A DNA stretch of 27,634 bases from a virus. This document shows positions 6,508 to 27,634 of the stretch, one piece after another. The position numbers were made by a program, and so were the translations under genes. Position 1 is the stretch's first letter. Every line of letters begins with the position of its first letter. The notes under the pieces are model-generated. The model made no database searches. It was not told the DNA's origin and saw only the letters and a program-made list of their open reading frames with translations. The stretch is taken from positions 1 through 27,634 of the IMG/VR virus record IMGVR_UViG_3300036845_000696; one strand, 5' to 3'.

Positions 6508-6743
6508 TTGGGAACCCTCCTTGATGGCAGGGCGCGGCCGTGCGTGTAGTACTGCCGCAGCGCGCTGTCATCGGTAGTCGAGATCACCGGCAGCGAAGAG
6601 ATCATCACCGGGCTGCGGCCCAGCCACGGGGGGGCCGGCGTGGGCATGCCGGGATTAACCGGGACGCCTATCGGCTGCCCCTCGAACGGAACCTTTACGT
6701 GGCTTCCGCTCAGGCTTGTTGATCGGCTGCTGATGCTGGGCAT
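6504..6743 (-). CDS. Small Pro/Ser-rich protein overlapping its upstream neighbour
   Basis: This 79-aa frame is unusual in overlapping the end of the 118-aa gene by 89 nt in another frame. Start ATG 6743 has a good SD (GGAAGGG, 6-nt gap). A later ATG at 6647 lies after the neighbour's stop but has no SD. The stop overlaps the ATG of the GNAT-like gene (ATGA), a typical coupled junction, which supports real translation of at least the 3' part. The product is rich in Pro, Ser and Arg and shows no domain I recognise. A shorter 47-aa product from 6647 is the main alternative. Confidence 0.5.
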   Translation of the reverse strand: MPSISSRSTSLSGSHVKVPFEGQPIGVPVNPGMPTPAPPWLGRSPVMISSLPVISTTDDSALRQYYTHGRALPSRRVPK

Positions 6744-7011
6744 GTTCGGCCCTTCCTGTCCGGTCCACTATCGCCGTGAGTTTGTTTCCGCAAATGGCGC
6801 ACACCCCGATGCATGCCCGGTTCGATTTGAAGATGTAGGCATCGCTGGTTCCATCGAAAACCGCCGCCATGAGAACTGCCTGGTCGAACGTGACCCTGGT
6901 CCCGTCAAAGCGCAGCACCTTGGCGTGCTTTTCATCCTCCGTGCAGCGCACCGTGATCCGGATCTCTTCCTCATAGCTGCCCTTCTTCCACCTCTCCGAC
7001 ACTGTCCCCAT
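6655..7011 (-). CDS. Hypothetical phage protein with CxxC-CxxC-like cluster
   Basis: The gene encodes 118 aa, starting at ATG 7011 behind AGGGGG. The N-terminal half looks like a beta-rich domain (IRITVRC, KVLRFDGTRV). Residues about 67-75 (CIGVCAICG) hold three Cys that could bind metal. The C-terminus is basic, His/Arg/Lys-rich and looks disordered. Its SD lies in the 3' arm of a 12-bp inverted repeat (7020-7048), so translation or transcription may be controlled there. It belongs to the run of small genes between the 1032-aa tail protein and the internal virion block. Function is unknown. Confidence 0.62.
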   Translation of the reverse strand: MGTVSERWKKGSYEEEIRITVRCTEDEKHAKVLRFDGTRVTFDQAVLMAAVFDGTSDAYIFKSNRACIGVCAICGNKLTAIVDRTGRAEHAQHQQPINKPERKPRKGSVRGAADRRPG

Positions 7012-7019
7012 TTCGATCC

Positions 7020-7048
7020 CCCTGTGACGTTACTTTAACATCACAGGG
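7020..7048. promoter_or_regulatory. Inverted repeat, candidate RHH operator or leader hairpin
   Basis: Arms CCCTGTGACGTTA and TAACATCACAGGG flank CTT, with one mismatch. The core TGACGTTA-CTT-TAACATCA matches 15 of 19 positions of the site at the RHH gene start (25350-25368). It lies in a 42-nt gap between two operon genes, and in minus-strand RNA the 3' arm includes the SD of the 118-aa gene. It could be a DNA operator, an RNA hairpin that masks the SD, or both. There is no T-tract, so it is not a typical terminator. Confidence 0.5.
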
Positions 7049-7049
7049 A

Positions 7050-7307
7050 CTACGCAATGTTGAGGTACTTCCCTTCCCGCTCGTACCACGCCCAGCCCTC
7101 TTCGTCACTGCCGTCGAACTCCCCCAGCATCGCCCGGTTCACGATCCCCGTAAGGCCGGCCGCATTGGCATCCTGCACCAGGGCCTCCAGGGGATTGGGG
7201 ATGGGGCTTTCGTAATCGTCGTAGACGCCGCGCTCCGCGTTCAGGATCATCCCCAGCGGAGCCCTCGCTTCCTGCAGTGCCTGCACGAGTTTTTCCCTGG
7301 TTTTCAT
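7050..7307 (-). CDS. Small acidic hypothetical protein
   Basis: I choose ATG 7307 (85 aa), which has GGAG about 9 nt upstream. A longer frame to 7364 would run into the tail-protein gene and starts with unlikely sequence. The product begins MKTREKLVQALQEA, a clear amphipathic helix, and ends in an acidic, Trp-containing segment (DGSDEEGWAWYE). There are no membrane segments, Cys clusters or recognised motifs. It lies directly after the 1032-aa tail gene (13-nt gap) and before the inverted repeat at 7020-7048. It might be a small virion or chaperone protein, but nothing in the sequence proves it. Confidence 0.62.
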   Translation of the reverse strand: MKTREKLVQALQEARAPLGMILNAERGVYDDYESPIPNPLEALVQDANAAGLTGIVNRAMLGEFDGSDEEGWAWYEREGKYLNIA

Positions 7308-7320
7308 GGCTGCTGCTCCT

Positions 7321-10300
7321 TTACTGCTGTTTTCTCTCCTTGAAGACCCCCCCGTAAACTGCAAATTTCAGCAGTTCGTCGGCTACTTGTTGCGGGCCGT
7401 AATCGATCTTCAGCTGGAATGTTTCGCACTTGGGCGTCTCGGCTGAACTCGATGCTTTGTAGCGGTCAGAAAACATGGTGATTGAAGGCTCGATGTTGGG
7501 CGGATCCTCGTGGTGGCCGTCATCGAGCGACAGCTGGTCCCATGCCGTGGTGCGGCCCTCGACGGTGACCCCGGCCGCCAGTTCATCGAGCAGCAGGCTG
7601 ACCGCCGGCCGCGCTCCCGCGGCCACGCTCTTGAGAGCGATGTGGACGATCTCGGCAACCTCGCCCGTGTCGCACAGCCCGATGGCGCCTTTAACGTCCC
7701 AGCTGGGATAGGGCGCATACGCGCCCGCGGTCCAGTCCCCGTACACCGCGGCGTCCCGCTTCAGCATCGGCCCGTTGACCGGCGGCCCGATGAGCAGATC
7801 GAATATCCCCGGCGCGGTCTCCACCGACTGCACGCAGCTGGTCCCGCCCTGGATGGCCGCGCGCGGACTCCACAGGCTGCCCGATTCAGGCGGCGCAATC
7901 GGGGACCAGCGGAACCATCCCACCGCTCCATCGGCCACGTAGAGTCCGGTATCTGTGGAGTTCTTCTCGTGCCAGGTCACGTAGGTGCCGGCCAGGCTGT
8001 AGAGCGCCGCGCCGATCCCTCCCGTGCTCACCTTCACGAACTGGTCGCCGATGGGGAACCCCTCCTCGATGTAGCCGTTCGACGGATCGAAGGAAAACAC
8101 CTTGGACTTGTTCGAGAAGCCGTGGAACGTGGAACCTACCATGCACAGGGCGTCGTAGTTGGCCAGACCCACGTTCTCCATGTACATGCGCGGCGCCAGG
8201 AAGGGAGGCGTCCCCGTCCCGTCGCCCAGGATGATGTAGGTATTCGAGACGCAGAACACCACCAGGCCGCCGCCCGATACCGTGATCGATTTCAGACGGA
8301 TGGGCTGCTCGGGCAGCTGGAAGTAGTTGCCCGGCGGGAACGACTCGTTGCCGTTGCCGGTCACCGTGTCCGGTCCTCCGGAGTAGATCACGTAGCTGCC
8401 GTTGATCATCCAGATGCGGCCGCAGTGGTACTCCGGACAGGTCGCCGTCGCCGGCGGCGGCGTGGCCAGCGTGCTGCCCGCTGTGGAACCAGGCGCGGCT
8501 ATCTCGGCATTGAGCATCTGGTCGGAATTGGTGTCGGTGTAGATCCAGATCTGGCCGGCGCCGGGGTTGGGAAACTCGTCGTCGTAAAGCAGCACGGACC
8601 CGTCCTGGGCGGTGCGCCACAGGATGATGGTGTCGTACTGCGGATCGGCCAGCCCTGCGCCCTGGATCACGGCCAGCTGGCCGGCGGCCAGGGTCAGCGG
8701 CGCGCTGGTGGGGCTGGGATTCGAGATGTAGCCGGTGATCGAGTTCTTGCCCGAGTACGCCCACTGCCACGCGCCCGTGCTGGCCGGGCTGTAGGGCCCG
8801 GCGTTGAGCCACATCTGGCTGCCGTCAGGAGTGGTCGATCCGGTGCCGCCGGTAGACCACGAGGGCGCGGCCGTGCCCGACTCGCCCAGCTGCTGCGGCC
8901 TTTCGATGTTGCCGTTGGTGTCAATGACCCTGGTATCCAGGCTGAGAGTCGCGGATGCCGGCCATGAATTCTGCGCGCCGGTATTTGTCCATACCACCGT
9001 GGAGTCAGAAACCGTCGTCCCCAGTCCGTTTGTCCATTGCGGAGGGTTGGCCCCGCTGGTTCCGGCCGTGGTACAGGTGAAGACCTGGGTGACGGTCACC
9101 GTAGTGGTGGTGAGGATGAAGTACGGCGGATAAGGAACGCTCTGCCCCTGGGTGATGGTGTAGGTAAACGTCACCAGCACCACCGCTCCCACCGCATACG
9201 CAGTGCTGGCCATCCAGGTCGCCGGGCCGAGATTTGTCCACACCGCGGTTCCCCCAGCTTCGGCCGTGGTTCCCCCTAAAGTTGTATTCCACGCAGGCGC
9301 TGCGCTGCCCGTGGTTCCCGCCGTGGTCAGCTGCTGCAGGTTGCCGTTGGAGTCGAGGATGATGAATGCCCCCGAAGGCGCGTACCAGGTACTCGCCGCC
9401 CAGTGGTGATAAATGCTGGGGGCCGCCGCCGTGGTCACCAGCGGCGGATCTGTCGGTGCCGCGCCGCCCAAGTTCTGGAGCGCGCTGCCCATGTTCACCC
9501 ATTGATTGCCGCCGTCCTGGGTGACCAGCCCCTGGGTCGTGTTCCAGGCCGGCTCAGTGCTTCCGGTTATGCCCGTGCCCGTACTCGCGGTTCCGGTCTC
9601 CACCGAGTATGGCGTGACGGGCGGATTGCCGCCCGAGGCCAGTATCGTGTAATGCATCTTGATGCCGCTGTCGTCTGCCACCGTGTAGGGCGTTGTCCCG
9701 TTCGCGCTGGGAACCGTGGTCAGCCCGGCAAGCGTCAGCGCGATGTTGCTCTTGATCTCGAGCGGCGTGGAAGGACTAAAGTAGAGCGATACCTTGCGGG
9801 TTCCCACGGGCGAAGGGAGGGACTCGACCTGGATGTTGACTATCGTCGCGGTCTGCGCGCCTATCGACAATTGCAGGTTGCCGTTCGAGTCCACGATATA
9901 AGCGCCCGTAGCGAATGCCGTCGATCCGGCCCATGATTTCTGGCTGCGCACCCACTTCATGGTCTTGGCGCCATCGGCGATGTAGAGCACCGATCCGATG
10001 CCGAGGAAGCGCGCATGGGCGGCGGCGGAACTCTTGGCGGCGATCAGCAGTTTCTGGTTGGCCGTCGCATCGTAGATGTTGCCGTCGCGGCCGTCGTAGA
10101 TCACGCGCAGGACTTCCTGGTTGTCGCGCACCCACTTGAATGCGTACCAGGAGTAGCCGGGAGGAAAACTGCTCGAGTTGTACACCGAGGATCCCGCCCG
10201 GCGCACATCGGTCAGCCGCGGCGAGATCTCGCGGTTGATGCCGTCGATCATCGAATCGAAGCGGCTGGCCGAGTAGAATTTTCGGTAAAGATAGGGCACA

Positions 10301-12954: not shown

Positions 12955-14139
12955 CTAAGTTGTCTGGGGAACCGTGACGGCGATGCGCGCGCGGCTGGTG
13001 GATGCCGGATCGGGCGGTAAACCTATGCCCAGCACGGCGTTGTAGCCTGTTCCGGCCATGATGAGGCCGTTCGGATCGTAAGCCGTTTTGGCCACGTACT
13101 CGCCCGCCCACAGATTCATATTTTTCCAGCTGGGATCGATCTTGGTGTGGCGCTTATTGGGGAAATTCACGAACACGATGGCATCGCGGCCGGCCAGGTA
13201 GGTGGAGATGCCGGTCAGTCCGCTGGACTGCCAGTTGGCGTACTGCGTCTGGTTGGTCGACTGCCGCCAGTGAGCCCCAAACAGGTCGAGGATGCGGGTC
13301 GGTTCCCTGCCCTCGGTATCGGTGGTCAACGATTCCAGCTTGACCTGGCCGGCATCGGTGCGCTTCCAGATATCGACCACGCTGTTATTGGTCTGGTCGA
13401 TCATTGCATCGCCAACCAGGAACGGATGGATAGACCCGGTGAACGCGCCCGAATCCATGGGCAGAACCGTCGCGCCCAGAAGCGACTGCGGCATCTGCTC
13501 GATGATGTTGGTGGTGAAATGGTAGGGGGTGGTCAGCGCGTCCTGGTTGCCGGTGCGCGGATCGTAGGTGCGCAGGTAGTCGAACATGTACATGACCAGG
13601 TCGTCGATGGTCAGGCCCAGCTGGTAGGCCATGATCTTGCGGTTCTCCTCGAGGTCGTTGGAGATCGAGGTCATGAACGCCAGGTCGGAGATGTTGTTGT
13701 AATTGGCCCACTGCCCCACCACGATGTCCCTGAAGTTGACGTTGATGGTCTCGGGCGAATTGATCGTTCCCTCGGTCTGCTGGGTCGTATCCGCAGGCAG
13801 CGGGATCGACATGAAATTCCTGAAAGTCTGGCCCGACTTCTCGGGCAGATCCATGTGCGTGCACATGAGCAGTTTGTTCAGGAACATGTACAGCCACTGC
13901 ATGAAAACGCGGTTGTAGTGGATGGTGAGCCGGGCCTGCGGCATGTTGGCGCTGGTCTGTGCCGCAGGGCTGGGACCGTCAGAAAAGGTCAGGTGGTGCG
14001 CGGCGGCCGCCGCGCTCTGCATCAGGAGAGATCCGGTGACGGCAATCGCGCCGCCGGTTGCAGCGAGCAGCTGCAGCATCGGCCAGAAAAGATTCCGCAC
14101 CAGCCACAGAGATAGGGAGATCTGTGTCCTTGCCCTCAT
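12955..14139 (-). CDS. Major capsid protein, N4-gp56-like, with hydrophobic N-terminus
   Basis: This 394-aa protein starts at ATG 14139 behind a strong AAGGAGA SD. From about residue 90 the pattern SGQTFRNFMSIPLPADTTQQTEG...INVNFRDIVVGQWANYNNISDLAFMTS...ENRKIMAYQLGLTIDDLV resembles the N4-gp56-type HK97-fold capsid family. The first ~48 residues are odd: a basic start, then LWLVRNLFWPMLQLLAATG and an Ala-rich end (SAAAAAHH), much like a signal peptide or membrane anchor. Internal ATGs near residues 40 and 66 have no good SD, so the long form is favoured. A strong terminator follows the gene. The family call is from pattern memory and not from a search. Confidence 0.78.
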   Translation of the reverse strand: MRARTQISLSLWLVRNLFWPMLQLLAATGGAIAVTGSLLMQSAAAAAHHLTFSDGPSPAAQTSANMPQARLTIHYNRVFMQWLYMFLNKLLMCTHMDLPEKSGQTFRNFMSIPLPADTTQQTEGTINSPETINVNFRDIVVGQWANYNNISDLAFMTSISNDLEENRKIMAYQLGLTIDDLVMYMFDYLRTYDPRTGNQDALTTPYHFTTNIIEQMPQSLLGATVLPMDSGAFTGSIHPFLVGDAMIDQTNNSVVDIWKRTDAGQVKLESLTTDTEGREPTRILDLFGAHWRQSTNQTQYANWQSSGLTGISTYLAGRDAIVFVNFPNKRHTKIDPSWKNMNLWAGEYVAKTAYDPNGLIMAGTGYNAVLGIGLPPDPASTSRARIAVTVPQTT

Positions 14140-17407: not shown

Positions 17408-17668
17408 TTATTCCCCTGCGCAGGGCGCGGGAACCTTGTACTTGGAACAGAGGTAGTTGAACGCCTCTTCAAGCAGGGGCTTCAGCTTCTTGCCGCTCTT
17501 GGCCTCGGCCATCTTCAGGGCCTGGCGCACCTCGGGGCTGAACTGGCCCCCGATGAATACCGTACTGCCGTTTCCGTTGTTTTTCGCAGCCGGAACCTTC
17601 TTGGCGGCCTTGGTTACCTTGCGGCTGGCGGCTGCCTTCAATCCTGCGGCTAGTGTGCCCTTTTTCAT
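17408..17668 (-). CDS. RHH partner of ParA (ParB/ParG-like centromere binder)
   Basis: The gene encodes 86 aa and its ATG overlaps the parA stop (ATGA) behind AAGGAG. Residues 1-35 are a flexible, Lys/Ala-rich tail, and such basic tails in small partner proteins can stimulate ParA ATPase. Residues about 38-80 are a ribbon-helix-helix fold: a strand (TVFIGGQFS), helix 1 (PEVRQALKMAEAKSG) and helix 2 (LKPLLEEAFNYLCSKYK). This 'GGxFSPEV...L...A...LF.KY..P' pattern is typical of proteins encoded right after plasmid parA genes. It probably binds the palindromes at 18324, 19254 and 27451 as a dimer, serving as centromere binder and repressor. The binding site is inference. Confidence 0.85.
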   Translation of the reverse strand: MKKGTLAAGLKAAASRKVTKAAKKVPAAKNNGNGSTVFIGGQFSPEVRQALKMAEAKSGKKLKPLLEEAFNYLCSKYKVPAPCAGE

Positions 17669-18312
17669 TTGTTCTCCTTCGGTTTGTACTTCTCCAATAC
17701 TACAGAAATGTAACCGTACAATTGTGCCATCTCCTCGGCGGCCTTCGATCCCGGCGCGAACTCGGAGGCGCTCTGGCCGATGTTGCCGGCATCCCCGTGG
17801 GCGGCCCTGGCATAGACCACGATGGGGCAGACCTCGAGGCCCAGGGCGGCCACTGCCTCGCGGGTTTCGATGTGCCGCCTGCCCTGCACCGGGGCGCGGT
17901 TGATCAGCACCGCGGCCGAGGGCTGGCCGGCCAGGGTCAGAACGTCCATCAGGTTGGTGAGGGTTTCGACGTCGTAGAGTTGCGGCTGCACCGGCATCAG
18001 CACCAGGTCGGCGGCCTTGGCGGCCGCGATCAGGGCGTCGGTGGATTTTCCAGGGCAGTCCACGATGGCCAGGTCGGCGCCGCCGCGTTTGGCCGCCGCC
18101 AGCACCTGGCCGAGGCGGGCGACCTGGCAGCTGACCACCGCCAGGGCCTCGCCCTCCCCCCGGCGGTCACTCCAGTTGGCCGCGGTTGTCTGCGGGTCTA
18201 AATCTATAACCGCCACGGAGCGGCCGGCGCGGTGCGCCTCGACAGCCAGGGCCAGGGCCGTGGTGGTCTTCCCGGTTCCGCCTTTTTGTCCAACGATTGC
18301 TAGCACTTGCAT
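17665..18312 (-). CDS. parA: ParA partition ATPase
   Basis: This 215-aa ParA/Soj-type ATPase has the deviant Walker A KGGTGKTT at residues 10-17, the A' motif IDLDPQ at 35-40 and a Walker B segment (LAIVDCPG) near 80-87. It lacks an N-terminal DNA-binding domain, as in type Ib plasmid partition systems, where the small partner protein represses transcription. It moves plasmid copies apart on the nucleoid surface. The first ATG at 18312 has no SD, and a -10-like TATCTT ends 7 nt upstream, so the mRNA may be leaderless. A palindrome fills the promoter spacer. The partner gene follows with a 4-nt overlap. It lies inside the virion gene cluster. Confidence 0.93.
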   Translation of the reverse strand: MQVLAIVGQKGGTGKTTTALALAVEAHRAGRSVAVIDLDPQTTAANWSDRRGEGEALAVVSCQVARLGQVLAAAKRGGADLAIVDCPGKSTDALIAAAKAADLVLMPVQPQLYDVETLTNLMDVLTLAGQPSAAVLINRAPVQGRRHIETREAVAALGLEVCPIVVYARAAHGDAGNIGQSASEFAPGSKAAEEMAQLYGYISVVLEKYKPKENK

Positions 18313-21887: not shown

Positions 21888-23582
21888 TTAACCCTCCAAA
21901 TTGCCTGGCAAAGGTGGAAGCCTGAAATTCATGGTGCGCGACATGGCGTCGATGTGCGCCTGGGTCTGGTTGCGGCGCATCTCGTCGGCGGTATCGTAGC
22001 CCTGCTGCTCGAGGAACTGGCTGAGAAGGGCATCGTCGCGGCGCCGCCGCTGCCACTCCAGTTCCTCCTCGGTCATGTTGGCGCGCAGCAGGGACAGGGG
22101 AACCTGGTTGGAGATCTTGGCGATGGACTCGATGATGCCGTTCTCCTCCACCAGGCCGAAATGGATGAACTGCTTGCGGCACTCGAACGCCTTGCCCATG
22201 GCCGTCGAGAACAGCAGGCGGCCGCTCTTGATCATCGGCTCCAGCTGTTCCATCTCCGCGATCCGCCGGTTCTCCTCCTCAAAGGCAACCGGCTGCATCT
22301 TGATGGAGCGGTTGCGCTTGAGGGCCTCGTTGCGCACATGGTGCATGAGGTAGTCGGCGCCGGGAACGTCGATGACCATCAGCGCATCGGCCTCGTGCTG
22401 CCTGAGCGCCGCCACGATCTTCTCGGCCTCGCCCGAGGGGGTCCAGGTTCCCTGCCATGCCTCGAGGATGTACACCCGGCCGTCGAGGATGCGCGCGCAT
22501 GCCCCTTCCGAGTACTTCGACATGCGGCGGTGCCCGCCGTAGCGCGGCCGCCAGCAGATGTAGACCTCCCCGTTGCGCGGGATCCGGCCGGGCGCGATCT
22601 GCGCGGCGTCGAAGGCGTACTCGTCAAAGCGGGGGATGGCGCCACCCTGGGGATCGTTGATTAACTGCGACATGAAGGCTTCATAGTTGGCGTAAAACTT
22701 CTCGCGCAGTTCCCCGTAGCCAAGGTTGGGGAGCTCGGGGAAGAGCAGGTCCATGTTCTCTTCCTCGGGGAATTGCCCCGGTACCAGGCGTTCTCTGCTC
22801 TTGAGAGTCAGGGCTGGGCGGATCAGCACTTCCCAGTTCTGGGGGTTCATCTGGGCGCGCTCGATGCACCGTCCGTACCAATCAAAGGGTGCGTATCGTG
22901 TGCCGCAGATATTGATATATCCGCCGCCGCGCAGAAGGTTCTCGTTCTGATCACAGATGTCTATGATGTTCTGGCGCACCTCGGGCGAGGCGCTAATGCC
23001 CGAATTCTTGGTGTCCTCGACATCGTCGGGCTCGAGGATCCACGGATGCCAGCCGGATTGCGTGGAGAGCGGTGAAGTAAAAGCCAGTGTGCAGTCCAGG
23101 TCGCCCGCGCCCGTCTGGCGGCGGTTGGGCGTGTTCCACGGCAGTTCCGGCCAGGTGGAGCTCACGATCTCCGGAAACATGATGTGCAGGGGTTTGGAGG
23201 GGCTGTTCTTGCTCTTGTAGAACAGCTGCGCGGTCTTGCCGGCCGAGGCTTGCGCCAGCGGTTGGGTCGCGCTCTCCACCAGGATGGTGATCTCCTCAGG
23301 AAAGGCGGCGATCCACTGGGCCCGGTCTATGCGCTTGGCGGTGGTCTTGAAGGCATGCCTGGGATCGAGGTGCAGGCGCTTGTGCTTGGAATGCTGCTGG
23401 GTGATGGGGACATTGGGATTTTTGGAGAAGTAGAGTCCGTTGAAGACCGGCCCGTGGACGCGCGGGGAGAAATCTTTATAGCCCAGAAGGTCAGCGGCGA
23501 AGAAAGCGTCGGTGATGAAGCGGTGGCGCATCTCCCCGCGGTAGTCGGAATCGTTCACCAGGCGCTCGGTGTCGAGGATCAA
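21888..23582 (-). CDS. terL: Terminase large subunit
   Basis: I read the start as TTG 23582, just after the preceding stop, behind GGGGTGA (564 aa). ATG at residue 18 is the alternative. ATPase motifs are a Walker A-like PRHAFKTT at about 74-81, Walker B WILEPDD at 181-187 and coupling motif ICGTRY at 225-230. The nuclease part (about 338-520) shows a strand pair (EVYICWRPRYGG...GRVYILEAW), an Asp in LMVIDVPGAD (405) and an acidic RRDDALLSQF near 518. It pumps DNA through the portal and cuts it at the end of packaging. The usual first catalytic Asp is not obvious in YICWRP. No small terminase subunit is recognised nearby. Confidence 0.87.
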   Translation of the reverse strand: MILDTERLVNDSDYRGEMRHRFITDAFFAADLLGYKDFSPRVHGPVFNGLYFSKNPNVPITQQHSKHKRLHLDPRHAFKTTAKRIDRAQWIAAFPEEITILVESATQPLAQASAGKTAQLFYKSKNSPSKPLHIMFPEIVSSTWPELPWNTPNRRQTGAGDLDCTLAFTSPLSTQSGWHPWILEPDDVEDTKNSGISASPEVRQNIIDICDQNENLLRGGGYINICGTRYAPFDWYGRCIERAQMNPQNWEVLIRPALTLKSRERLVPGQFPEEENMDLLFPELPNLGYGELREKFYANYEAFMSQLINDPQGGAIPRFDEYAFDAAQIAPGRIPRNGEVYICWRPRYGGHRRMSKYSEGACARILDGRVYILEAWQGTWTPSGEAEKIVAALRQHEADALMVIDVPGADYLMHHVRNEALKRNRSIKMQPVAFEEENRRIAEMEQLEPMIKSGRLLFSTAMGKAFECRKQFIHFGLVEENGIIESIAKISNQVPLSLLRANMTEEELEWQRRRRDDALLSQFLEQQGYDTADEMRRNQTQAHIDAMSRTMNFRLPPLPGNLEG

Positions 23583-24033: not shown

Positions 24034-24624
24034 TTATCCCACGCTGAATTTCTTGACCACCACGGTGGTAGCCGCGCCGCCGGCCGCCGCCGAGGAGGAG
24101 AAACTGAGCACGAAGTTGGCCACGGGGCTGTTGGCGTCCTTGACCCCGGTGATGATGGTGGCGATGGCCGCCTTGACGGTGAGGATGTTGTTCACCAGCC
24201 ACTCGACGGTGCCGGTCAGCTTGCCGCTCACCGAGTCGTAGAGGAGTTCGCAGTGGACCTTCCAGGGCGCCGTGGTGGTGCCCACGGCCGAGGCGCTCGA
24301 GGATCCCAAGGCGGTGTTGGTGGCATCCGTGGTGGAGGTGCCGGCGGCCAGTTTGCCCACGATGTTGGAGGCATTGGCCGTGGTCACGTAGCCGGAAGCG
24401 TAGAGATCGAAGGGAGTGGCTTCGTTGCCCTCGTTGGGACTCAGGGGGCAGACCAGCGCCAGGGTGGGGTTCTGGGGATTGAGAACAACTCCCGCGGCCA
24501 CGCCGGTCAAAACGAGGGAGGCGGGCAGGACGTTGGCCTGGTTGGCCTGCTGGTTCAATCCGGACATCAGGGCCGAATTGGCGGCCAGGGGTACAACGCT
24601 GTTGGGCCGGTCTGACAATGCCAT
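24034..24624 (-). CDS. Probable structural protein, 196 aa
   Basis: The gene starts at ATG 24624 behind a strong AAGGAGAACC SD. The product is rich in Ala, Thr, Ser, Asn and Val with almost no charge (LPASLVLTGVAAGVVLNPQNPTLA..., SSSASAVGTTTAPWKV), like a beta-sandwich decoration or spike protein. The C-terminal third alternates short strands (KLTGTVEWLVNNILTVKAAIA, NFVLSFSSS, TTVVVKKFSV). No collagen-like repeats or enzymatic motif are visible. Position before terminase is unusual for a tail protein, so a head decoration role is equally likely. Function is not settled. Confidence 0.62.
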   Translation of the reverse strand: MALSDRPNSVVPLAANSALMSGLNQQANQANVLPASLVLTGVAAGVVLNPQNPTLALVCPLSPNEGNEATPFDLYASGYVTTANASNIVGKLAAGTSTTDATNTALGSSSASAVGTTTAPWKVHCELLYDSVSGKLTGTVEWLVNNILTVKAAIATIITGVKDANSPVANFVLSFSSSAAAGGAATTVVVKKFSVG

Positions 24625-24713
24625 CGCGGTTCTCCTTGCCCGCTCAGTCTAAGGCGAGCCGAGAACCGCAAATCAGAAACTTGGGGCTATTTTCCGTAAT
24701 GGTAACTAGGGAT

Positions 24714-24914
24714 CTACTCCTCCTCCAGATGCTTGAGCCGGGCATCGATCACTTCCTCTACCCGTCTGAGTTCCGCCCGCCACAAGTCGCGCATGTCGTC
24801 GAATCTCTGGTTGATCTGATTGAAACGCTGGTTGTTCATCCACATCCCCACCAGAACCAGAAAGCAGGGAAAAAAGCCCGTCAGGAAGAAGGGCATGTAT
24901 TGGGAAATGTTCAT
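24714..24914 (-). CDS. Small membrane protein with coiled-coil tail
   Basis: Its ATG overlaps the stop of the upstream gene (ATGA), giving 66 aa. Residues 5-27 (QYMPFFLTGFFPCFLVLVGMWM) form one membrane helix, and residues 28-66 (NNQRFNQINQRFDDMRDLWRAELRRVEEVIDARLKHLEEE) a continuous charged helix likely to be a coiled coil. The plan resembles a short spanin-like or holin-associated protein, but it is smaller than known spanins and no outer-membrane partner is seen. It is the second gene of the late operon as drawn here. Confidence 0.68.
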   Translation of the reverse strand: MNISQYMPFFLTGFFPCFLVLVGMWMNNQRFNQINQRFDDMRDLWRAELRRVEEVIDARLKHLEEE

Positions 24915-25345
24915 TTGGACAACTCCCTGAGCCGCAAAATCAGGTTGGGGATCTCACCAGAATGACCACTGCTGGCGTTTCCAGCCTCGCCAGGCGTTTC
25001 GGAGACCTCGGGTGGGGGTAAGAGACCTTCCAGAGTCCCTGCGGCCTCCCTGAGGGCTTTACGGAGGATGTTCTTGTTGGGCAGGCTGCGGTCCCGGCTC
25101 AGGGGGACCGCCCTGGTGATGTCCCCCCGTTCGGCCCGCCAGGCGCGGAACAGTTCCCGCTCCTCGGGCGTGGAGGGGTGGAGGCACACGGTGCATTTGC
25201 GGCCGCGGCGCTGCTCGGCGCGGATGGCGGCGAGTTTGTTCTTGCATTTTTCGCCGCACACGGTGGACTGCCGGCTGGCCCGTTCGGCGGATATGGGCTT
25301 CTGGCACACCGTGCAATGCAGCTGGGATTCGGTGGTCTGGGACAT
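24911..25345 (-). CDS. Zinc-finger-like protein, first gene of the late operon
   Basis: The gene encodes 144 aa from ATG 25345. Residues 10-35 (LHCTVCQKPIS...TVCGEKCKNK) and 50-54 (KCTVC) give three CxxC-type pairs, a treble-clef or FCS-like zinc-binding pattern. The middle is basic (RAEQRRGRK) and the end Pro/Glu-rich. There is no SD, and a TAACAT -10-like box lies so that transcription would begin at the ATG itself. That -10 overlaps the RHH operator, so the gene heads a regulated, leaderless transcript. It is a candidate DNA- or RNA-binding switch. Its biochemical role is unknown. Confidence 0.7.
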   Translation of the reverse strand: MSQTTESQLHCTVCQKPISAERASRQSTVCGEKCKNKLAAIRAEQRRGRKCTVCLHPSTPEERELFRAWRAERGDITRAVPLSRDRSLPNKNILRKALREAAGTLEGLLPPPEVSETPGEAGNASSGHSGEIPNLILRLRELSK

Positions 25346-25349
25346 AAAA

Positions 25350-25380
25350 CAATGTTACTTTAACGTCATGAGCAACGCAA
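25350..25380 (-). promoter_or_regulatory. Predicted late-operon promoter with overlapping RHH operator
   Basis: Reading leftward, TTGCGT (25375-25380), a 17-bp spacer and TAACAT (25352-25357) place the start site at 25345, the A of the ATG. The palindromic core CAATGTTA-CTT-TAACGTCA (25350-25368) covers the -10 and also the first base of the RHH start codon on the other strand. One bound repressor could thus control both genes. Confidence 0.5.
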
Positions 25381-25559
25381 AAGAATCTTCCCGCTACCTG
25401 CGCATCGGGCTGTACTTCGACAACCAGCAGGAGTTCGACCTCGTCATCCAGGCCGCCGAGGCCGCGCGCCGCAGCCGCAACAGCTGGATCATCCAGACCA
25501 TCGTGCGCGTGGCCAGGGAAGAGCTCGCCAAGGAAAAGAAGCGTGGGAAGGTGGCCTAA
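25368..25559 (+). CDS. RHH-type small DNA-binding regulator
   Basis: This 63-aa protein is encoded on the plus strand from ATG 25368. The arrangement strand (YLRIGLYF, 10-17), helix (QEFDLVIQAAEAARR) and helix (SWIIQTIVRVAREELAKEK) fits an Arc/MetJ-type ribbon-helix-helix dimer. It has no SD, and the start codon overlaps an operator-like palindrome, which suits an autoregulated repressor. It is transcribed divergently from the late operon and sits 1 nt before a zinc-finger gene. A role as switch between plasmid maintenance and virion production is a reasonable inference from place and fold. Its target is not proven. Confidence 0.72.
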   Translation: MSNAKESSRYLRIGLYFDNQQEFDLVIQAAEAARRSRNSWIIQTIVRVAREELAKEKKRGKVA

Positions 25560-25560
25560 A

Positions 25561-25941
25561 ATGGCGCTGAAAGCAATTCAATTTGAAGAATACTGGCAAC
25601 GCTGCATTAGCTGCGGATCGTGGTTCGGCGTTGATGCCTTTTTTGACAATGAGCGACGCAAAAGCAAAGCCAGCTTCTACTGCCCCAACGGACATTCGCA
25701 GGTCTACACCGAGAACGAGGCTGACCGTCTGCGCAGGGAACTGGAAGCGGAGCGTCAGCGTGTAGCCCTGGAACGGGGAATGCGAATCACTGCGGAGAAT
25801 CGGCTGGCAGTGGTGCAGAAGGAAGCCAAGCGCGTCTCCCGGCGCATTCATGCCGGTGTGTGCCCCTGCTGCAACCGCACCTTCCAGAATCTGGCGCGGC
25901 ACATGGCGACAAAGCATCCGGAAAAAACGCCGTTACGTTAG
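25561..25941 (+). CDS. Two-zinc-finger protein with coiled coil
   Basis: ATG 25561 (126 aa) follows GGAAGG and sits 1 nt after the RHH stop. The N-terminal finger CISCGSW...FYCPNGH is a C-x2-C...C-x3-H ribbon. Residues about 55-95 are a charged coiled coil (NEADRLRRELEAERQRVALERG). The C-terminal CPCCNRTFQNLARHMATKH is a C-x2-C-x9-H-x4-H finger close to the prokaryotic Ros type. It probably acts with the RHH protein as a regulator or as a DNA-contacting factor. The last codons overlap the end of repA on the opposite strand (convergent, 4 nt). Confidence 0.75.
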   Translation: MALKAIQFEEYWQRCISCGSWFGVDAFFDNERRKSKASFYCPNGHSQVYTENEADRLRRELEAERQRVALERGMRITAENRLAVVQKEAKRVSRRIHAGVCPCCNRTFQNLARHMATKHPEKTPLR

Positions 25942-26912
25942 CGGTCTAGTGATATGAACTTTTGCGGGACCGGCGGTTCGCTGTGGTAGAGGGTGAGTCC
26001 CATGCGCGCCGGTTCGCGCACGATGCTGGGCGCGCCAGGCGTACTGCTGGCAAACACCTTGCGCCGGCCGCGCTCTCCCTCTTCGACGCGCGCCTTCTTG
26101 TAGAGCCTCATGACCATCTTCAAAACTTCGCTGAAGTCGCGCCTGAAATTATTCAGGCGGCTGTACCTGTGGCCAAACTGGGCGTGCAGCCGCAGCCATG
26201 AGATCTGCTGGGGGCGATTGGGCGGAATACGGTGCAGGCGATGCGCCAGCCATGAATAAACATCCAGGGCCAGGGCGTTGTGGCTGAGAGCTCGGATGTG
26301 GTTTTCAACCAGTGGGACCGCGTGGGCGTTGAGATCCTGAAAATAATCTGCGGAAAGAAGGATCTGTACCGGCCAGATCACTTTGCCCTGGATCCACATC
26401 TCGCATCCTCGAACAAACTTGCCATCCACCGTGTGGAAGTGATCCTCGGATCCGTCTTTTTTGCGCGTGATCTGCAGATGAGTATTGGCCAGGCGGCCTA
26501 ACTGTTCCTTGATCCTGTCGTTGTTTCGTCCATAAGAAGCCTCCTTCAGCACCAGGCGAACAAAACTTCTTATGTTTTTTTCTACGTCGATCACCGGATT
26601 GTGTGTGAGCAGCGCGATCTGGTTCAAGTGCATCAGGATCACGCGCGCTTTGGGCCCCCACGGCAAACCCAGCTGGATGTCGTTCTTTCCCCATCCAGGC
26701 ATGATGATTTCGCCGGCCGTCAGCTTAATGGCCAGGTTGCCGTTCTCCCGCCGTACTACCCGTTCCTCGCCGGGATCGTTGTGAGGAAAGTAGATCTGGC
26801 AAAAAGTCGAATCGAGATAGAGAGGCTTTTGGGGAGTGGACGGCTCTACCGCCGCTGCGATAAGGCGCGCTTCGATGGCAGTTGGCTCGGCCTTGTGGAT
26901 TAAATCGGCCAT
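25938..26912 (-). CDS. repA: Plasmid replication initiator, RepA_C-type
   Basis: This 324-aa protein is homologous, by pattern, to the 'plasmid encoded RepA' family. The signature LGLPWGPKARVILMHLNQIAL lies at about 82-102, followed by IDVEKNIRSFVRLVL, an RKDGSEDHFHT insertion, a KVIWPVQILLSADYFQDL segment and an ALALDVYSWLAHRLHRI helix. The C-terminus has a winged-helix-like region (WLRLHAQFG...FRRDFSEVLKMVMRLY). It would bind the four iterons upstream and open the AT-rich region. ATG 26912 has no SD. TATGAT at 26924-26929 suggests a 5-nt leader. Replication control by iteron handcuffing is family knowledge. Confidence 0.88.
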   Translation of the reverse strand: MADLIHKAEPTAIEARLIAAAVEPSTPQKPLYLDSTFCQIYFPHNDPGEERVVRRENGNLAIKLTAGEIIMPGWGKNDIQLGLPWGPKARVILMHLNQIALLTHNPVIDVEKNIRSFVRLVLKEASYGRNNDRIKEQLGRLANTHLQITRKKDGSEDHFHTVDGKFVRGCEMWIQGKVIWPVQILLSADYFQDLNAHAVPLVENHIRALSHNALALDVYSWLAHRLHRIPPNRPQQISWLRLHAQFGHRYSRLNNFRRDFSEVLKMVMRLYKKARVEEGERGRRKVFASSTPGAPSIVREPARMGLTLYHSEPPVPQKFISLDR

Positions 26913-26923
26913 GGTTTTGCTGA

Positions 26924-26952
26924 ATCATAAACCAAAAACCACCCAAAATGAC
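26924..26952 (-). promoter_or_regulatory. Predicted repA promoter
   Basis: Reading leftward, GTCATT (weak -35), a 17-bp spacer and TATGAT (good -10) lie 11 nt before the repA ATG. The predicted transcript would have at most a few bases of leader, matching the absence of an SD. Confidence 0.4.
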
Positions 26953-27017
26953 GCTAAAACTGTTTACTAATCTTGCTCTGGCATATTGCTTATCTCCTAG
27001 TGATCATTCGCTTTATT

Positions 27018-27035
27018 TGTGAGCACTTACTAGCA
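27018..27035 (+). repeat. Iteron 1
   Basis: TGTGAGCACTTACTAGCA. It shares at least 16 of 18 bases with the other copies. It is the copy nearest repA and stands apart from the rest by 76 bp. Confidence 0.85.
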
Positions 27036-27111
27036 TTGAGCGTAATGTTAGGCGAATATTTCGCGAAGCATGAATTTTGCTTGTGCAAAATGTTGAAAAT
27101 GTTCGGGCACG

Positions 27112-27129
27112 TGTGAGCACTTGCTAGCA
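27112..27129 (+). repeat. Iteron 2
   Basis: TGTGAGCACTTGCTAGCA, direct repeat of iteron 1. The following AACAACCC resembles sequence next to other repeats in the region. Confidence 0.85.
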
Positions 27130-27145
27130 AACAACCCTCAAAATG

Positions 27146-27163
27146 TGTGAGCACTTGGTAGCA
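27146..27163 (+). repeat. Iteron 3
   Basis: TGTGAGCACTTGGTAGCA, 34 bp from iteron 2 (start to start). It ends in GGTAGCA, like the short repeat family downstream. Confidence 0.85.
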
Positions 27164-27170
27164 GATAGAG

Positions 27171-27188
27171 TGTGAGCACTTACTAGCA
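27171..27188 (+). repeat. Iteron 4
   Basis: TGTGAGCACTTACTAGCA, identical to iteron 1 and 25 bp from iteron 3. A decayed relative (CGAGCACTTTGCATGA) lies at 27282-27297. Confidence 0.85.
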
Positions 27189-27193
27189 GAGAA

Positions 27194-27238
27194 ACCCGGT
27201 AGTACAACCCGGTAGTTAAAAGCAGCCGGTAGTGCTCT
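27194..27238 (+). repeat. Triplet of CCGGTAGT short repeats
   Basis: Three copies of (A/G)CCCGGTAGT-like sequence follow iteron 4. The last runs into GTGCTC, the reverse complement of the iteron core GAGCAC, so it doubles as an inverted half-iteron. It could be an operator for repA control or extra initiator contacts. Confidence 0.55.
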
Positions 27239-27340
27239 CTGTGGAAATTGTTGAAAACCACAGAAAAACCACGATCTAGCCACGAGCACTTTGCATGAGG
27301 GAGGTGGAAGGTCCCAAAAACCCCCCGACCTGGTAGCAAA

Positions 27341-27450
27341 GCAGTTTCCTTAAGCAACCAAAAAATCCTTATAAATTCAATCTTTTAAGGCAAGGGCCAG
27401 CCATTTTCTCCTCCTTACAAATCACATCTTATAAGGAATGCTTGTAGTGC
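27341..27450. other. AT-rich stretch of the origin
   Basis: Two related motifs, TCCTTATAAATTC and CTTATAAGGAATG, lie in a run of low GC. This would be the natural DNA-unwinding element next to the iterons. Confidence 0.5.
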
Positions 27451-27470
27451 TACAGGAGTGTATTCCTGTA
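27451..27470. repeat. 20-bp palindrome, copy 2 (origin)
   Basis: Perfect arms TACAGGA/TCCTGTA with a 6-bp centre, as at the parA promoter 9.1 kb away. On the plus strand TATAAC follows at the place of a -10. It is a candidate parS/centromere or co-regulated promoter. Confidence 0.65.
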
Positions 27471-27539
27471 TAACAACCCGGTGAAAACAAAACAAGTAAA
27501 AACAAGAAAACCGAGCAAAGACAAGTAAATGAAAACAAG

Positions 27540-27634
27540 GATATTGACAAAATCGTCAAATTAATTTAGCTTTATGCTATCGCATAATTTAATAACTTAA
27601 ACCACAAAATTAATTAGACGATTTTGTCAATATC
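27540..27634. repeat. Terminal inverted repeat with nested hairpin
   Basis: Arms 27540-27567 and 27607-27634 (28 bp, one mismatch) start GATATTGACAAAATCGTC. The 39-bp centre contains TTATGC-TATC-GCATAA. The window ends exactly at the outer base of the right arm. It may be part of the origin, a transcription barrier at the end of the late operon or a recombination site. No recombinase gene is present to support the last. Confidence 0.8.

Follow-up and report, generated by a model that had tools for sequence, protein, structure and literature searches.

A 22-bp divergent gap in a soil phage family: a probable leaderless bidirectional promoter overlaid by the putative operator of an Arc-like repressor

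Can a gap of 22 bp hold the start signals of two opposed genes and, within the same letters, the binding site of a protein that would shut both of them? The question is raised by a virus record of 27,634 bases (IMG/VR, IMGVR_UViG_3300036845_000696), analysed over its whole length and hereafter called the window. Its structural genes, including those for the terminase and the head protein, lie on the minus strand from 25345 downward and are headed by a zinc-finger gene, whose CAT (minus) closes at 25345, while the gene for a small ribbon-helix-helix (RHH) protein runs the other way, with its ATG opening at 25368 (Table 1). The tight divergent spacing of the original prediction, only 22 bp (25346-25367) between the zinc-finger and RHH ATGs, is confirmed on the sequence. 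We consider it probable that this gap is a symmetric, leaderless bidirectional promoter, and that its overlapping -10 elements form the operator of an Arc-like autorepressor that would also control the late operon.

Table 1. Features of the window discussed in the text (strand "." where no strand applies)
Feature	Coordinates	Strand	Basis or remark
Second GTTACTTTAAC copy (7029-7039) in a 29-bp palindrome	7020-7048	.	8 bp upstream of ORF 6655-7011 (-)
Major head protein, late operon	12955-14139	-	weak match, phrog_1357
Terminase large subunit, late operon	21888-23582	-	phrog_38
Zinc-finger (treble-clef-like) gene, first of late operon	24911-25345	-	homologues hold the same position in relatives
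Gap between divergent ATGs	25346-25367	.	22 bp, letters AAAACAATGTTACTTTAACGTC
Putative RHH operator	25351-25367	.	17 bp; core GTTACTTTAAC at 25354-25364; centre 25359, 9 bp before RHH ATG
Putative late-operon -10, TAACAT	25352-25357	-	6 bp before zinc-finger ATG
Putative RHH -10, TACTTT	25356-25361	+	6 bp before RHH ATG
Alternative late -10, TAAAGT	25357-25362	-	from gap letters by family geometry
RHH (Arc/TacA-like) protein, 63 aa	25368-25559	+	profile, fold prediction, structure comparison
ORF 3' of RHH gene, zinc finger	25561-25941	+	phrog_33336; Shine-Dalgarno present; 1 bp past RHH stop
RepA_C plasmid replication initiator	25938-26912	-	domain match; convergent with RHH transcript
Four iteron-like repeats GTGAGCACTTnnTAGCA	27017-27196	.	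repeat search; beside repA

With terminase and head protein, RepA_C and ParA on one record, and the iteron-like repeats, the window has the gene content of a phage-plasmid: structural genes of a phage beside replication and partition genes of plasmid type. A tblastn search with the window RepA gave a match in 880 plasmid records. The parA gene (17668-18312) and a second RHH gene directly after it (17408-17668, above the Antitox_RHH cut-off) are located within the late operon; parA is without a Shine-Dalgarno site, so it may have its own promoter, also leaderless. The right end of the record (27540-27634), which adjoins the iterons, is an inverted repeat with 28-nt arms, 96% complementary, and 39 nt between them. 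Candidate explanations are a hairpin telomere, an origin structure and a snap-back made in assembly. The ORF at 16003-16380 matches a Holliday junction resolvase family, and its first 26 or so residues (MTRMNRRAERNAWTEFV...) are common to proteins encoded near the beginning of the late operon in relatives (RusA in L004, 1665-1739; L028, L006 and L024), a pattern that looks like the fusion of a single N-terminus to different nucleases.

Single-sequence searches of viral contigs with the RHH, zinc-finger or RepA protein returned no relative and those with the terminase three; no relative of the RHH protein was found among phage records, and none of the terminase among genome contigs. Profile searches gave 22 loci for the terminase and 37 for the head protein, together 41 distinct related viral contigs. 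An iterated profile seeded with the window RHH protein identified a single RHH ORF in every one of the 34 sequences searched, representing 24 distinct contigs including the window (L001 is the window's own locus in opposite orientation), and linked the RHH proteins of the window and L004, for which pairwise BLASTP gave no alignment. In all 24 contigs this ORF lies on the strand opposite the late operon and adjoins its first gene. The remaining 18 contigs, searched with the RHH alignment, yielded one match, in the L029 contig, where the RHH gene runs co-directionally with the late operon. The 17 contigs without a match are mostly short or begin inside the late operon; in G010, G012 and G013 sequence upstream of the late genes is present, yet no RHH match was found. 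The 42 contigs including the window thus comprise 24 divergent, one co-directional and 17 with no RHH gene found, and the arrangement belongs to a whole family of soil phages, part of which carry plasmid genes. Among the records searched, a distant phage of an acidobacterium gives the only head-protein match of nearly full length; an acidobacterial host is only hinted at.

In several relatives a replication initiator converges on the RHH gene: RepA_C in L022, and HTH_36/O-like or DnaD-like matches in L010, L012, L008 and L015, with a small minus-strand ORF intervening in L022 and L015. In L047 a plus-strand ORF is convergent with the RHH gene and the RepA and ParA genes lie further left; L018 also carries a RepA_C gene. 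In L004, L006 and L024 a minus-strand gene follows RHH instead (DUF1376 in L004). Judged by these neighbours, the RHH gene mostly stands alone in reversed orientation, with the replication module on one side and the structural module on the other.

The family profile places the protein in the RHH (MetJ/Arc) superfamily: among solved structures it matches 1y9b best (4.1e-07), followed by the TacA2 chain 7ak7 (4.1e-06) and Arc (4.7e-05). The AlphaFold2 monomer (pLDDT 85.5) contains helices at residues 20-32 and 37-58, with the strand unassigned in the monomer. Arc chains rank first in Foldseek, where all E-values exceed 0.001, short of significance for a chain of this length, and VIA-align gives Z scores of 6.6-6.7 for the RHH antitoxins KacA, AtaR and TacA and of about 5.8 for Arc. 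The window protein is below the curated Pfam cut-offs for TacA1 (14.2 of 21 bits) and Arc (12.5 of 20.4). A ParG-like identity was also considered and dropped, as the window has a separate RHH gene beside parA.

The VIA-align scores, together with weak TacA1 matches in 11 of the 24 family members, could point to an antitoxin-type autoregulator of the TacA/KacA kind, for which divergence from the late operon would be incidental. This we regard as highly unlikely, since no acetyltransferase toxin was recognised among the neighbours scanned (a minority of all neighbours) and most relatives have a convergent gene on the 3' side of RHH. In the window this position is held by ORF 25561-25941, presumably co-transcribed with the RHH gene, which matched no toxin in the window scan. 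Weak NikA-like matches in seven of the 24 members, and ParA genes nearby in 9 distinct contigs (including L045-L049, L051, L052 and L055), would agree instead with a partition or relaxosome DNA-binding protein whose centromere includes the palindrome described below. The separate RHH gene right after parA in the window, the plus-strand ORF standing between parA and the RHH gene in L047, and the presence of one palindrome at the promoter and no array make this scarcely probable.

A TAnnnT hexamer, with -12T, -11A and -7T all present, stands exactly 6 bp 5' of the RHH ATG in 17 of 24 contigs and exactly 6 bp 5' of the first late start codon in 13 of 24; each of the other spacings from 0 to 19 occurs in 0 to 3 contigs on either side, and the same placement is found at 1.26% of 1354 ORFs (at least 100 aa, same loci). 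The full set of key bases is missing at the RHH start in seven contigs (L021, L022, L048, L004, L024, L006 and L028). The distance from ATG to ATG is 18 bp in 11 of the 24 contigs, 19 in three, 21 in one, 23 in the window, 24 in one (GTG), 29 in two and 39-53 in five (L004, L006, L024, L028 and L048). If the ATGs are taken as the starts, 17 contigs have starts 18-24 bp apart, within the 7-25 bp by which bidirectional promoters are defined, two have them at 29 bp and five at 39 bp or more. TTGACA is found 31-45 bp upstream of the RHH ATG in 10 of 24 contigs, where it falls within the first part of the reading frame or leader on the late side. In L047, L051, L018 and L046 the frame that follows the ATG at 18 bp has fewer than 40 codons, and the longer ORF begins later; this ATG and the GTGTCAA motif (RHH -35) are kept before a RusA-like gene despite the short frame, which suggests that recombination spared the regulatory DNA.

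Shine-Dalgarno sites (anti-SD pairing of -5 kcal/mol or better) are found at none of the 24 RHH starts and at one of the 19 first late starts scored, namely those of contigs with a gap of at most 28 bp. The controls, a few rows of which are two loci of one contig, gave 23 of 23 rows for gp24624 (22 distinct contigs), 13 of 20 for the terminase, 20 of 29 for the head protein and 22% at random positions. Absence at the RHH starts and presence in the gp24624 control argue that transcription begins at or very near the ATGs, and the transcripts in both directions are probably leaderless. The co-directional RHH gene of the L029 contig (L063, 1081-1119) also has a promoter of leaderless type, TTGACA ... 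TATAGA-6-ATG.

Across the 24 contigs the centre of a palindrome falls exactly 9 bp upstream of the RHH ATG, as in CTGGTATtATACCAG (L012), GTGCTATaATAGCAC (L020) and CCTATATaATATAGG (L051). The mean paired fraction at this centre is 0.60 (24 contigs, 8 pairs), against 0.23 (sd 0.055) over 200 centres and 0.37 at the next best. Because the start had been chosen among in-frame Met codons in ten contigs, with the promoter partly guiding the choice, the 14 contigs whose start required no choice served as a control and gave 0.62. Three or fewer of the eight positions are paired in L016, L004, L022, L048, L024, L006 and L028. The outer pairs 4-7, which lie outside both hexamers, are paired in 53 of 72 cells in a class of 18 contigs (all but L004, L006, L021, L022, L024 and L028), against a column-shuffle mean of 29.6 (sd 3.5), with 0 of 10000 shuffles as good and with 12 pair types; 13 less redundant contigs give 39 of 52 against 19.9 (sd 3.2), the column shuffles ignoring relatedness among contigs. 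These pairs, beyond the -10 hexamers, co-vary with compensatory changes. Further operator copies were sought in the other 23 contigs, many with partial loci, at up to 3 mismatches; only the site itself, duplicate-locus copies and one overlapping match in L021 were returned.

Symmetry of this kind might belong to the promoter only, as overlapping -10 elements with a mirrored extended -10 TGn, the RHH protein acting elsewhere. Symmetric -10 elements are described as common and as sufficient for bidirectional transcription in the available text of PMC12825309 and PMC10268837, and TGn precedes the RHH-side hexamer in L010, L012, L008, L015 and L020. We hold this explanation to be unlikely: pairs 4 and 7, which are outside the hexamers and the TG of TGn, pair in 12 and 16 of the 18 contigs with four and three pair types, the GCCTATAtnATATAGGG group has no TGn yet is equally palindromic, and in the L029 contig, where the RHH promoter is not divergent, the leaderless spacing is present but a palindrome is not evident by eye.

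In the window, a TAnnnT hexamer stands precisely 6 bp 5' of each ATG, so that, if the ATGs are both starts, T, A and T occupy -12, -11 and -7 in both directions; the -7T and -11A that define a bidirectional promoter are thus found each way. The two hexamers share 2 bp, and the core GTTA-CTT-TAAC, a palindrome of 11 bp, lies at the family centre with 5 of 8 pairs formed. The ATG-to-ATG distance is 23 bp, unlike the commonest 18 bp, and the alternative hexamer TAAAGT could serve as the late -10 instead of TAACAT. The original prediction had the RHH ATG starting in the last base of the operator; the family geometry instead ends the operator one base short of the ATG. Both hexamers are poor matches to TATAAT, no -35 is evident, and a generic sigma-70 scan found no promoter in the gap, its two overlapping sites within 24600-27634 both lying inside repA. 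As the scan is blank here, the promoters of the window alone are weak and the argument depends on the family comparison; by its letters the window promoter/operator is weaker than those of the relatives.

Under the reading that we prefer, the compact bidirectional promoter would double as an operator. RNA polymerase would bind either way round, since the two -10 elements overlap within the palindrome, and the transcript in each direction would begin with the A of its ATG or right beside it. The RHH protein made from one direction would bind the palindrome, block both -10 elements and thereby repress its own gene and the late (structural) operon; with the shared start signal as its binding site, one protein could turn off both itself and the virus-building genes. 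With such a brake, the structural genes would stay silent for as long as the element is maintained or replicates. A palindromic operator is usually occupied by two RHH dimers, an arrangement that a palindrome of 15-17 bp would suit, whereas the original prediction would have one dimer shut both promoters. We infer RHH binding, repression of both genes, leaderless starts and the life-cycle role from sequence comparison, in which the idea of a single site spanning two promoters is well supported: the divergent architecture in 24 of 42 contigs and a palindrome at a fixed position over both putative -10 elements uphold this part of the original prediction, RHH binding, the single dimer and the firing of both promoters being predictions.

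RHH regulators can also activate, and the position of the gene between replication initiator and late operon would fit an activator or temporal (early-late) regulator and not a brake; a site over both -10 hexamers is the typical position of a repressor, and we give the activator very little probability. A wider form of the repressor proposal has, in our estimate, slightly less than an even chance. It holds that the palindrome of 15-17 bp does four jobs, as operator, as two opposed -10 elements and, by way of leaderless transcripts, as start-codon spacer (18 or 23 bp), that the RHH family locks replication or maintenance against virion production in an uncultured phage lineage, and that the half-sites diversified with the protein while the core was kept. 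If so, repression would be specific to each phage through its co-diversified half-sites and protein.

The window holds two occurrences of GTTANNNTAAC, against 0.04 expected in shuffles. The 29-bp palindrome around the second copy of the core is a possible second RHH site; its strong fold as RNA (-26.1 kcal/mol, z -5.2) means that it may be a hairpin element instead. No palindrome was seen by eye upstream of the homologues of ORF 6655-7011, and ORF 7050-7364, beside the palindrome, has no homologue in the fetched loci.

Autorepressors at divergent promoters are of a known kind, and the parts of the arrangement are known. Literature searches found no RHH protein at a bidirectional promoter, no equivalent for an RHH protein at a divergent phage operator, and nothing related to a leaderless bidirectional promoter with a phage repressor; as far as these searches show, no phage late switch is described in which an operator coincides fully with two -10 elements and with the start-codon spacing, and the compression is unusual. 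The family offers some twenty natural variants of one bidirectional promoter with a candidate cognate repressor, so that operator and promoter symmetry can be separated experimentally. It also supplies a candidate late-gene switch in a phage lineage of which the records searched contain no isolate. The abstract of PMC12825309 describes the regulation of bidirectional promoters as unknown.

Bidirectional promoters with a shared -10 (Warman et al.; PMC12825309, PMC10268837) are the nearest in geometry. Divergent starts are most commonly 18 bp apart, with 10 and 23 bp common too (PMC12825309, in the text available), and here they would be 18 bp (the commonest in the family) or 23 bp (the window) apart if the ATGs are the starts; the 18-bp class sets -7 and -11 opposite one another (PMC10268837, likewise), as here. 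The present promoters differ in that both starts would equal the A of the ATGs and that a longer, co-varying palindrome, the likely operator, is laid over the -10. AcrR/acrA of E. coli (PMC12825309) resembles the proposal in having an autorepressor divergent from the operon that it represses, at a bidirectional promoter; AcrR, however, is of the TetR family and non-phage. The antitoxins TacA, KacA and AtaR are alike in fold and in weak Pfam TacA1 similarity but have a partner toxin, none being recognised here among the neighbours scanned. The Mnt and Arc proteins of P22 immI are small phage RHH repressors with an operator covering a promoter, and Arc is the protein that tops the non-significant Foldseek ranking for the window RHH model. 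In P22 two repressors control an antirepressor moron, in longer regulatory DNA. The gene under mnt and arc control there is ant (PMC2629481, in the text available), whereas here a single RHH protein faces the structural operon itself, and the divergent gene is the zinc-finger gene.
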